Below, piece by piece: positions 14,058 through 17,438 of a DNA stretch of 37,135 bases. This DNA is from an uncultured bacterium (GTDB taxonomy: Bacteria > Desulfobacterota > BSN033 > UBA1163): positions 1 through 37,135 of the forward strand of contig CALLAL010000042.1 in the NCBI GenBank assembly GCA_938002255.1, given 5' to 3'. The notes beneath the pieces were generated by a model. The model did no database searches and was not told where the DNA came from. It saw only the letters and a list, made by a program, of their open reading frames with translations. The position numbers and the translations under genes were made by a program. How positions within the stretch are numbered: position 1 is the first letter of the stretch; each line of letters starts with the position of its first letter.

Positions 14058-14372
14058 ATGAAGTCGCAGGAAGTCCATAGAGAAAGAGATCACCGCTGCT
14101 TTCGATGTGGAAAGGAGCTCCCGGCAGGGAGTCTGAGCTATATCACCCAGATCCGAATCTTTGCGGGGTTTGACGGTGTTCTCCTGGAGCCAGAGGAGGG
14201 GGTGGATCAACAATTCAATCAGCTTTTAAAACAGGTGGAAGAGGCGAATCCAGAAGACCTCGAAAAAGAGGTCTATCAGGAGTTTCATCTGATTCTCTGC
14301 AAGAGTTGTCGGGACCGATTGGTCGAGGAGATCGAACATCCTTGGGGAAATCCTGGCCGCTTTGTCCACTAA
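14058..14372 (+). CDS. small four-Cys (zinc-ribbon-like) protein, function unknown
   Basis: This is a 104-residue acidic protein with CFRCG near the N terminus (Cys14, Cys17) and CKSC near the C terminus (Cys81, Cys84), a spacing that could bind one zinc ion. Between them lies a helical, Glu-rich stretch. No known family was recognised. It starts 13 bp after trmFO behind AAGGAG and is very likely co-transcribed with it, ending just before a new promoter. A role in tRNA or translation quality is only a guess from its neighbour. Confidence 0.65.
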   Translation: MKSQEVHRERDHRCFRCGKELPAGSLSYITQIRIFAGFDGVLLEPEEGVDQQFNQLLKQVEEANPEDLEKEVYQEFHLILCKSCRDRLVEEIEHPWGNPGRFVH

Positions 14373-14390
14373 ACCTGATCAAAAAAAACC

Positions 14391-14419
14391 TTGACAACCT
14401 CTCTCCCTTTTGCTTAAAT
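14391..14419 (+). promoter_or_regulatory. strong sigma-70-type promoter
   Basis: A perfect TTGACA at 14391-14396 and TTAAAT at 14414-14419 are separated by 17 bp (TAAATT with 18 bp is the alternative). Transcription would start inside the 23-bp palindrome that follows at 14421-14443. Confidence 0.7.
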
Positions 14420-14420
14420 T

Positions 14421-14443
14421 ATTTCAACTGAATCAATTGAAAT
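14421..14443. promoter_or_regulatory. 23-bp near-perfect palindrome, probable operator
   Basis: The left arm ATTTCAACTGA (14421-14431) and right arm TCAATTGAAAT (14433-14443) flank a central A. Ten of eleven arm positions are complementary; the single mismatch is the eighth base of the left arm. It lies directly after the -10 box and 6 bp before the ATG at 14450, the classical place for a repressor site. The gene lacks a clear Shine-Dalgarno sequence, so an RNA hairpin effect on translation is an alternative. Confidence 0.7.
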
Positions 14444-14449
14444 GAAACC

Positions 14450-15037
14450 ATGTTTCGAAAAATCCTTTCCTTAAAAAAACTAACTCAGGACCTTTTCAAG
14501 AACGGCACAAAAGAGATGACGGGGCGTACTCGGGGGGCTCGCCTCCGAGAGACGATCGAAAAGATTCTACGGGAAGGAGAAGAACCCTGCCTGGTCATCG
14601 ATTTTTCGGGAATGGGGTCTATCGATTTCTCCTGGGCGGATGAGGTGGTCGCTAAAATCGTTTCTCGGCTCTGGAGCAATGAATATGGAGAAAAGTTTCT
14701 GGTCTTGAAAGGACTCAATCCCTCCCAAGAAGAGAATATCGGCGTTGCCCTTGAACGGAAGAGATTGGCGATCCTGACCATTGGTCCTGGAGGCTGGCGG
14801 GTCATCGGCTCCCTTAATAACTACCTCATCCAGACCCTCAAAGAGGTGATGAAACAGAAGAGGTTAACTCTGCGCCAGTTATCCGAGAAAGAGAAGATCG
14901 GAATGAATACCAGTGGAACACGCTTGCTGAATCTTTACAAAAAGAGGTTAGTCTTGCGGATCGAAAGGGGAGATGACTTGAAACGAGAGACCCTCCATCG
15001 GGGGAGACCGTATATCTATCAATCGCTGCTTTCTTGA
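14450..15037 (+). CDS. STAS-like (DUF4325-type) domain protein with C-terminal helix-turn-helix-like part
   Basis: The 195-residue protein has a central STAS-like region (about 20-115) recognised by CLVIDFSGMGSIDFSWADEVVAKIV. This resembles the DUF4325 family, related to anti-sigma factor antagonists. The C-terminal part (about 130-190) reads as a winged helix: LTLRQLSEKEKIGMNTSGTR is a plausible helix-turn-helix, followed by a basic strand region. DNA binding and autoregulation through the palindrome 6 bp upstream are inferred. The protein probably senses or relays a signal, but no partner kinase or sigma factor is adjacent. The GalT-like gene follows after 9 bp, so both may share this control. 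Confidence 0.65.
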   Translation: MFRKILSLKKLTQDLFKNGTKEMTGRTRGARLRETIEKILREGEEPCLVIDFSGMGSIDFSWADEVVAKIVSRLWSNEYGEKFLVLKGLNPSQEENIGVALERKRLAILTIGPGGWRVIGSLNNYLIQTLKEVMKQKRLTLRQLSEKEKIGMNTSGTRLLNLYKKRLVLRIERGDDLKRETLHRGRPYIYQSLLS

Positions 15038-15046
15038 GGAGTCTGT

Positions 15047-16039
15047 ATGGCGCAATTGAGAAGAGATCCCATTACCCGGATGTGGGTGGTCATCACCAAT
15101 GACCATCCGAAAGGCCCTTCGGATTACCTCCCTTTCAAACCGCCCTATCAACTTCCAGAGCCAGAAGGTCCCTGCCCCTTCTGTCCAGGCAATGAGGCTC
15201 TCACGCCACCCGAAATCTATTCGATCATGAAGGAAGGTGAGAAAGGATGGGGAGTGCGAGTCATCCCTAACAAATATCCTTTCTTTCGCATTGAAGGGGA
15301 GTTCGATCGAAGGCCCGAAGGAATGTATGATGTCATGGAAGCCATCGGTGCCCATGAGATTGTGGTTGAGGCTCCCGAACACCAACAGACGCTTGCGTTG
15401 ATGGAGAGTTCCAAGATTCGTAAAATCCTTCAGGCCTATCAGGAAAGGCTGCTTGACCTTGAAAAAGACCAGAGGTTTAAACAATTCCTGATTCTTAAGA
15501 ATTATCCGGGGATCTTTAATCGGCACCCTCATTCTCACATCCTCGCCATGCCCGTAGTTCCTCGAAGGATCGATGAGGAGATCTGGGGAATTCTGGATTA
15601 TTACCAACGAAAAGAACGATGCATTTTTTGCGACATTCTTAAAGAAGAGATCTTGATGAAGAAACGGATTATCCTCGAGACCGTTTCATTCTTGGTCTTT
15701 GCTCCTTTTGCCTCTCGCTATCCCTTTGAAACCTGGATTGTTCCCAAACGGCATCGGTCTGATTTTCATCGCCTTCAGGAAGAAGAGGCAGAAGATCTTG
15801 CGCTGGCGATTCACTCTCTTTTTCTTCGTTTCTATCGATTACTTTCTGACCCACCTTACAGTCTAACGTTTCATACCTCGCCAGTTCAAGAACCTTTCCA
15901 TCGATCCGAATTCCACTGGCATATTGAAATCCGATTGAGGATTGGGCTGAGAGAAGGCTTTGAATGGGGGACAGGGTTCTTTGTCAATCAGACTCCTCCT
16001 GAAGATGCGGCGGCCTTTTTAAGGGAAGTCGAACGTTGA
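15047..16039 (+). CDS. GalT-family nucleotidyltransferase (galactose-1-phosphate uridylyltransferase-like)
   Basis: The 330-residue protein has the two-lobed HIT fold of the GalT family. Zinc-type cysteine pairs are seen at Cys43/Cys46 (CPFCPGNE) and Cys192/Cys195 (CIFCDI), with HWHIEI at 290-295. The active-site motif is HPHSH at residues 160-164. True GalT enzymes read HPHGQ or HPHSQ, with Gln in the last position and the middle His as nucleophile. The third His here matches the HxHxH of HIT hydrolases, and the usual Gly/Ala-rich lead-in is replaced by KNYPGIFNR. It may be a phosphorylase or hydrolase of sugar nucleotides. No galK, galE or galactose transport gene is nearby. Confidence 0.8.
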   Translation: MAQLRRDPITRMWVVITNDHPKGPSDYLPFKPPYQLPEPEGPCPFCPGNEALTPPEIYSIMKEGEKGWGVRVIPNKYPFFRIEGEFDRRPEGMYDVMEAIGAHEIVVEAPEHQQTLALMESSKIRKILQAYQERLLDLEKDQRFKQFLILKNYPGIFNRHPHSHILAMPVVPRRIDEEIWGILDYYQRKERCIFCDILKEEILMKKRIILETVSFLVFAPFASRYPFETWIVPKRHRSDFHRLQEEEAEDLALAIHSLFLRFYRLLSDPPYSLTFHTSPVQEPFHRSEFHWHIEIRLRIGLREGFEWGTGFFVNQTPPEDAAAFLREVER

Positions 16040-16118
16040 GGGGCTGGAGGTAGGGTCAAAAGGTTCGGGGACTCCCATGGAAGGCAATTGAGAATTTCAA
16101 GAAAGACTGGAGGTAACG

Positions 16119-17438
16119 GTGACAGCGATGAATCTCAAAAAGATAGATCGCCTGGGCAAAGAGAGGATGAGGCATCCGCGAAAAACATTGAGATGGGTTT
16201 TTCTCCCGTTTTGTCTGATGATCCTTTTCGGATTATTCGCTTACTTCTACATCCTCCCCAACCAACCGATTCCCCCAAGAGAAGGTCCTGCCGAAATCGT
16301 TTCACCTGCCCAGGAATCCCAACCTGCTGAGCCTCTCTATCAAGTGATTCAAGGGGAAGTGAAAGAGAACAGCACATTTACGAAAGCCCTCGCTGAAAAG
16401 AATATTTCGCGGACATGGATCGAAACCCTTGTGGCTGCCCTGAACCCTCTTCTCAATTTCAAGAAATTGAGAGGGGGAAAGTTTCAATTGGTGTTGGATG
16501 AAAAAGGGGACATGGTCAGGTTTCTCTTCGAAACAGGACCGATCGACGTGTATGAAGTGGAAAGGGGGACTCAGGGATATGTTGCCAGAAGAAAAGAAAT
16601 TCCCCTGGAAACTTATTTAGTCAAAGTGGAGGGAGTGATTCGATCTTCCCTCTTCGAGGCGATGGATGCTGCAGGAGAGAAAGATCAACTGGTTCTCGCC
16701 TTTGCTGAACTACTGGCTGCCGAGATCGATTTCTATAAGGATGTGAAGGAAGGCGACCGTTTTCAGATTCTGGTGGAGAAAGTTTATAAAGATCAGGAGT
16801 TCATCCGATACGGTCCTATCCATACGGTTGAGTATCAGCAGGGAGAAAAATCAATTATAGGCATTTCCTTTGAGGGCGATTTTTATAATGAGAAGGGAAT
16901 GGCTTTGAAAAAAGCTTTTTTGAAATCACCTCTTCGGTTTACGAGGATCAGTTCAAAATTCAGCAGAGGAAGAAAACACCCCATTCTTGGGGGCATCCTT
17001 CCTCATTATGGTGTGGACTATGCTGCGCCCCCAGGAACTCCAGTCTGGGCTGTTGCGGATGGGATAGTTGTGTCCTCTGGGTGGGGAGGAGGGTTTGGAA
17101 AACAGGTTGTCCTTCGGCATCCAAACGGCTATATGACCTATTACGGTCATCTGTCCGGTTATGGACCGGGGATCAGGAAAGGGGTCAGAGTCAAACAGAA
17201 ACAGGTCATCGGTTATGTGGGATCCACAGGGCTTTCCACCGGTCCTCATCTGGATTATCGGTTGGCGAAAGATGGACGGTTCAGAAATCCTCTGAAAGAG
17301 AGTTTCCCGAGCGGGGTTCCAATCGCTCCCCCCAAGATGGAGTCTTTTCAGAAAAAAAGAAATGAGATGGTTGGCTTGCTTCAGGATTCTGCTTTCAAAC
17401 GAAAACGGCTCGATGACGCAAAAGAAACGATGGAATGA
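16119..17438 (+). CDS. M23 (LytM-type) family peptidase, membrane-anchored
   Basis: A 439-residue inner-membrane-anchored, periplasmic protein. A basic cytoplasmic head precedes one transmembrane segment (about residues 25-47). A Pro-rich linker and an OapA/LysM-like region (about 65-200) are followed by the M23 domain at about 275-400. Metal-site residues are His296 and Asp300 in HYGVDYAAP, with a GHLSGY catalytic His segment. The final motif is GPHLDYRL (377-379 HLD), where Asp379 replaces the usual second zinc His. That change occurs in some M23 proteins and may or may not preserve cleavage. GTG 16119 lies 5 bp behind GGAGG; ATG 16128 is the alternative. It starts a five-gene operon. Confidence 0.88.
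   Translation: MTAMNLKKIDRLGKERMRHPRKTLRWVFLPFCLMILFGLFAYFYILPNQPIPPREGPAEIVSPAQESQPAEPLYQVIQGEVKENSTFTKALAEKNISRTWIETLVAALNPLLNFKKLRGGKFQLVLDEKGDMVRFLFETGPIDVYEVERGTQGYVARRKEIPLETYLVKVEGVIRSSLFEAMDAAGEKDQLVLAFAELLAAEIDFYKDVKEGDRFQILVEKVYKDQEFIRYGPIHTVEYQQGEKSIIGISFEGDFYNEKGMALKKAFLKSPLRFTRISSKFSRGRKHPILGGILPHYGVDYAAPPGTPVWAVADGIVVSSGWGGGFGKQVVLRHPNGYMTYYGHLSGYGPGIRKGVRVKQKQVIGYVGSTGLSTGPHLDYRLAKDGRFRNPLKESFPSGVPIAPPKMESFQKKRNEMVGLLQDSAFKRKRLDDAKETME

Follow-up and report, generated by a model that had tools for sequence, protein, structure and literature searches.

A probable CapS-like autorepressor with a conserved operator, probably orphaned by kinase loss in a family of Desulfobacterota

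The capS-like locus and its product

The stretch of DNA analysed here (the window) comprises 37,135 nucleotides from an uncultured bacterium of the Desulfobacterota, and the locus under study occupies positions 14058-17438. At its centre is a gene of the forward strand (14450-15037) that codes for a protein of 195 amino acids, with a STAS-like domain at residues about 3-112 and a predicted winged helix at about 121-195. We refer to it as the capS-like gene. Its neighbours are trmFO, galT and genes for an M23 peptidase and a response regulator. Between trmFO and the capS-like gene there is a Cys-rich ORF of 104 amino acids (14058-14372, forward strand) that serves as a synteny marker. This ORF is conserved, carries paired CxxC motifs and matched no Pfam family above the cut-off; a homologue is found between trmFO and the kinase gene in two of the relatives (G021 and G017). 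At the junction that follows (14373-14390), the kinase-bearing g5 relatives have genes for an M54 peptidase, a radical SAM protein and a STAS-GHKL kinase, and the window has none. On the other side, a galT-type nucleotidyltransferase gene (15047-16039, forward strand) starts after a gap of only 9 bp. The order of these two genes and a gap of about 9 bp are kept in the family loci, and both genes are very probably co-transcribed as one operon, a link that the initial annotation had overlooked. The gene for a Csd3-like M23 peptidase (16119-17438, forward strand), a possible distal member of this operon, keeps its place in family f1 and is also located downstream of the capS-like gene in a locus of another family (L020).

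The promoter of the capS-like gene was placed at 14391-14419 on the forward strand, with TTGACA (14391-14396) as -35 and TTAAAT (14414-14419) as -10 at a spacing of 17 nucleotides, the register common to most family orthologues. An equally good one has TAAATT (14415-14420) as -10 at a spacing of 18 and matches 10 of the 12 consensus positions. The dyad ATTTCAACTGAATCAATTGAAAT comes directly afterwards (23 bp, 14421-14443), with 10 of its 11 arm pairs matched and one C:A mismatch, and ends 6 bp before the ATG at 14450. The initial annotation had described a promoter followed by a 23-bp dyad with a single arm mismatch, 6 bp before the start codon, and we found the coordinates to be as claimed. 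The operator that we assign to this dyad has a conserved 19-bp core (TTCAACTGAATCAATTGAA, 14423-14441) built of TTCA/TGAA quarter-sites, and it overlaps the expected transcription start. No other 23-bp dyad with at least 10 of 11 pairs was found in the window. Since shuffled windows of equal length are expected to contain a mean of 0.6 such dyads, the single dyad is not significant by itself. The genome scan for the dyad arms proposed in the same annotation returned the pattern once in the 3.27-Mb genome.

The N-terminal half of the protein matched DUF4325 (PF14213, residues 29-92) with 26.8 bits, over the curated cut-off of 23, and the 195 residues had no match in NCBIfam. An AlphaFold model built with the 22 orthologues (pLDDT 89.8, pTM 0.85) gives a STAS fold to the N-terminal part, with 1vc1 (Z 10.4, 2.5 A over 96 residues), RsbS (6jhk, Z 9.6) and SpoIIAA (1til, Z 9.0) as structural matches. 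The C terminus is modelled as a winged helix, with helices at 124-136, 141-148 and 152-164 and strands at 168-172 and 188-192, and residues 121-195 had structural matches of the MarR/ArsR type. The proposed fusion of a STAS-like domain to a winged helix is thus borne out by the DUF4325 match and by the predicted C terminus, where the expected helix-turn-helix is present in the form of a winged helix (pLDDT 90 when rounded). S61 is invariant in all 22 orthologue rows, and D59 and S61 are both invariant in the family.

CapS is a STAS-winged-helix protein that represses immune operons as well as its own gene (EMBO J 2026, PMC13373217). Its partner CapK, which single-stranded DNA activates, is an HTH-STAS-GHKL kinase; it phosphorylates CapS at S54, which breaks the dimer and takes CapS off its own promoter (PMC13373217). 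We compared a profile of the 22 orthologues with the CapS structures and obtained matches to 9z71 (E 2.2e-7), 9z72 (E 7.3e-7) and 9z73 (E 7e-7), nearly full length and across both domains (profile positions 27-188 and 23-191). The identity between the window protein and CapS is 20%. In the alignment CapS S54 corresponds to S61, in a register checked through N145, K151 and G169-170; once the offset of two in the CapS chain numbering is allowed for, S54 is found to be the second serine of T-D-S-S. At the position of N145, the contact residue of CapS, the window protein has T154. Foldseek and VIA-align searches against the PDB did not list CapS, probably because the library ends in April 2026, and we did not count this absence as evidence. 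By the profile comparison, the window protein and CapS are distant homologues over their full length.

Conservation of the operator

Orthologues of the capS-like gene were found in 22 of 99 relatives, and further ones in named Deltaproteobacteria, Thermodesulfobacteriota and MAGs of Syntrophaceae. In the family of the window genome, the 19-bp core lies upstream of all 13 full-length copies (12 genomes) with at most one mismatch, directly after a TTGACA promoter; similar hexamers and spacing precede the operator in most orthologues. By comparison, no core match better than 15 of 19 positions was obtained from 960 shuffled upstream regions. The presence of the palindrome upstream of orthologues had been set as a check beforehand, and the 13 family copies answer it in favour of the proposal. 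Outside the family, most loci have the related site TTCAAYTGAANNANNTGAA at the same place, and three of them (L016, L018 and L020) match the family consensus weakly. TTCA at core positions 1-4 and TGAA at 16-19 were found in 22 of 22 loci. In four family genomes that lack the full gene (G002, G005, G008 and G010) no core with two mismatches or fewer was found, and a fifth (G009) has only matches with two mismatches.

Two loci (L005 and L024) have about 120 bp of extra DNA between the operator and the start codon. Here the operator is still beside the promoter, which indicates that it is an element of the promoter rather than of the ribosome-binding region. The extra DNA of L024 (1368-1495) is bounded by inverted repeats of 16 nt (TTCACCCCGTTAGAAG and CTTCTAACGGGGTAAA), and neither of the two inserts had a match in Rfam. 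Weak as the dyad is alone, we take the conservation of the operator, a pattern read from sequence, as the decisive evidence for the feature.

Distribution of the kinase and candidate regulon

Using the CapK of E. roggenkampii (locus L077) as query, we detected STAS-GHKL proteins in five relatives, several of them encoded directly upstream of the capS-like gene. A profile built from five of these kinases was searched in 28 genomes and had matches in eight carriers outside the family and in no family genome; in the 12 family carrier genomes, neither this profile nor the CapK query found a STAS-GHKL kinase. An adjacent kinase is present in f2 and f7 relatives. In a sample of 247 genomes of the phylum, the seven strong kinase carriers all have a capS-like gene, and seven of the eight carriers of a full or near-full capS-like gene outside the family have the kinase. 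Over all genomes examined, it accompanies 10 of the 11 full or near-full carriers outside the family versus 0 of 12 inside, counts that are not independent, as the absence in the family is probably one event. These genomes are draft MAGs, and the kinase could sit in a gap of any one of them, but hardly of all 12 carriers. The GHKL half of the relatives' kinase resembles SpoIIAB (Z 13.4) and RsbW (Z 12.3) in a predicted model of low to modest confidence (pLDDT 65), so we rely only on the fold of this half, together with the Pfam HATPase_c match.

In g5 the genes run trmFO, Cys-rich ORF, M54 peptidase, radical SAM, kinase, capS-like gene and galT, and in the window family they run trmFO, Cys-rich ORF, capS-like gene and galT. 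In g5 the kinase gene overlaps or closely follows the radical SAM gene, and the gene for the M54 peptidase (archaemetzincin) adjoins (L074:7766-9804, L080:236-2256). In a tree that does not resolve the deeper branching, the family is a single clade whose long stem lies among kinase-bearing lineages (89/100), a pattern that fits a single loss of the kinase. From these data we infer that the kinase was probably lost in the window family, with a gain elsewhere as the less likely course.

The capS-like gene is not decaying, since the dN/dS values of family pairs were between 0.04 and 0.12 over the full length and low in both domains. The sequence comparison indicates purifying selection in the family despite the missing kinase. 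Thirteen positions differ consistently between the family and the kinase-bearing group. Among them is residue 62, next to S61, which is Trp in 13 of 13 family copies and Cys in most kinase-bearing proteins; the clade-specific residues fixed in the STAS part are G25, R28 and W62.

Altered or isolated copies were also seen. L113 (G060) and L114 (G181), of another family, hold capS-like remnants with stop codons and no detected kinase. In L021 (G005) the end of a PIN-domain-like ORF stands in place of the missing 5' half of the gene. In L112 (G189) a DNA methylase ORF and a possible restriction ORF lie immediately upstream of a capS-like gene without kinase.

The operator pattern was matched at other genes as well, which makes the regulon targets candidates from pattern matching. 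Promoter-linked operators precede gltX in G020, G021, G022 and, in another family, G044 (L127, L129, L142 and L121), and the gene of an HRQ1-type DEAD helicase in the g5 genomes G017, G020 and G022 (L132, L133 and L134). In kinase-bearing genomes they were also found at a PAS/GGDEF gene and at an AddB-like gene (G026). The pattern suggests a chromosomal CapKS-like regulon in the kinase-bearing relatives. Besides, G017 and G020 conserve a second copy of the operator 5 bp before a small single-span membrane ORF (L053 and L056, around 1501-1519). No clear promoter directly precedes this copy, and downstream of the small ORF there is another with an exported-protein-like start and no Pfam match.

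In the family carriers, essentially the only full copy of the operator lies at the capS-like gene, and in the window genome this is the only clear promoter-linked copy. We also looked for a larger regulon in the window genome and rejected it. Two patterns returned the zero-mismatch C3 site and nine one-mismatch sites, all but two inside long ORFs; the exceptions were a site in the intergenic gap before an rtcA-like ORF, with a weak promoter (L172), and another in a doubtful ORF of 114 amino acids (L170).

Interpretation and comparison with known systems

The reading that we consider probable is that of a CapS-like autorepressor of the capS-galT operon, orphaned by the loss of its kinase. Within it, the predicted autorepression by the capS-like protein is well supported at the level of sequence, and the operator just after the -10 has a position that suits repression of the own gene. 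A dimer held together by the STAS domain would place its winged helices on the TTCA/TGAA quarter-sites of 14421-14443, cover the expected start site and so repress its own gene and galT, and perhaps the M23 peptidase gene. In relatives outside the family, the STAS-GHKL kinase would phosphorylate the serine equivalent to S61 and release the repressor. In the window family, the kinase would have been lost and repressor and operator kept, leaving either a kinase-less self-limiting repressor or one that responds to some other signal. We count against this reading T154 at the position of CapS N145, the TTCA/TGAA sites in place of TTAA, the low identity with CapS and the retention of S61 in the absence of the kinase.

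A more specific version, which we put forward tentatively, is that the regulator has turned one-component: the kinase gene deleted, the regulon shrunk to the own operon and the STAS domain, under purifying selection and with clade-specific changes near the former phospho-site, sensing a signal directly. If so, the kinase-bearing relatives would have a chromosomal CapKS-like circuit that controls housekeeping and DNA-repair genes (gltX, the HRQ1-type helicase and the AddB-like nuclease) in place of an immune operon. The initial annotation had proposed a one-component switch distinct from the known anti-sigma antagonist partners. By origin this distinction fails, as the protein is a CapS homologue, CapS works with a serine kinase of SpoIIAB type, and relatives outside the family have a kinase of this kind; for this lineage it may hold, and "one-component" may be literally true in the family, since the searches of its genomes detected no kinase of this type.

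It seems unlikely that the kinase input is intact, through an unrecognised or unlinked kinase, and that the system is still a two-protein switch of the CapKS type. The invariance of S61 and D59 in the family and the richness of the window genome in GHKL proteins speak for it, and another kinase may act on the S61 kept in the family. However, the kinase profile and the CapK query found nothing in the 12 family carriers, the seven HATPase_c_2 matches of the window genome are all HisKA histidine kinases, none of which reaches the family cut-off, and residue 62 has changed next to the serine itself.

We hold it equally doubtful that the STAS domain responds directly to a small molecule, such as a sugar phosphate or a nucleotide sugar linked to galT, and acts as a ligand-gated one-component regulator. 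The absent kinase, the short gap to galT and the fixed G25, R28 and W62 would suit such a sensor. However, no ligand is known for CapS, and galT also follows the capS-like gene in g5, where the kinase is present. That another regulator binds the dyad and the capS-like protein acts elsewhere is very improbable, since the site is missing from family genomes without the full gene, has essentially a single full copy, at this gene, and the homologue CapS binds its own promoter (PMC13373217). A chance palindrome, for which the expectation of 0.6 per window would speak, or an mRNA hairpin without protein ligand, was rejected on the conservation of the operator, with a core that is nearly the same in the 13 family loci and recognisably related in other families, and that keeps its spacing to the -10 but not to the start codon.

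The autorepressor favoured here can be compared with several known systems. It shares the fold of residues 121-195 with MarR/ArsR-type repressors and has an N-terminal STAS domain instead of their dimerisation or ligand parts. It resembles SpoIIAA and RsbV in the STAS fold of the substrate, and the relatives' kinase resembles SpoIIAB and RsbW in fold. In contrast to SpoIIAA and RsbV, the window protein has a predicted DNA-binding domain of its own, which argues for direct binding of DNA; no candidate for an anti-sigma factor or sigma partner was identified in the window genome. DUF4325 is a STAS-like family without assigned function, to which the literature examined makes passing mentions only, and the data suggest a likely function for its members of STAS-winged-helix architecture.

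The closest system is CapKS, a pair of regulators of immune operons whose description in 2026 places the kinase beside the repressor in every case (PMC13373217). There, capK is directly upstream of capS in 443 of 443 cases, an immune operon follows in 348 of 443, a usual but not universal setting, and CapS recognises TTAA half-sites in narrow or wide palindromes (PMC13373217). The likeness extends to an N-terminal STAS domain and a C-terminal winged helix in 182-195 amino acids, the aligned phospho-serine, a palindromic site at the own promoter and the STAS-GHKL kinase that adjoins relatives of the window gene. Unlike capS, the window gene lies between trmFO and galT and not before an immune operon, and the half-sites of its family are TTCA/TGAA. 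The relatives' kinases consist of a STAS-GHKL region in which we detected no N-terminal HTH as in CapK, and a kinase was neither beside the window gene nor detected in its genome. In view of the absent kinase and of the different half-sites and genomic setting, the window protein is a CapS homologue but does not make up a CapKS system. It points to CapKS relatives that are part of chromosomes of the Desulfobacterota type and stand apart from recognised immune operons; these relatives have a recognisable operator and a candidate regulon. The concrete operator sequence makes autoregulation directly testable, and a family where the repressor seems to have outlived its kinase would be a natural experiment on a kinase-less STAS-winged-helix repressor.
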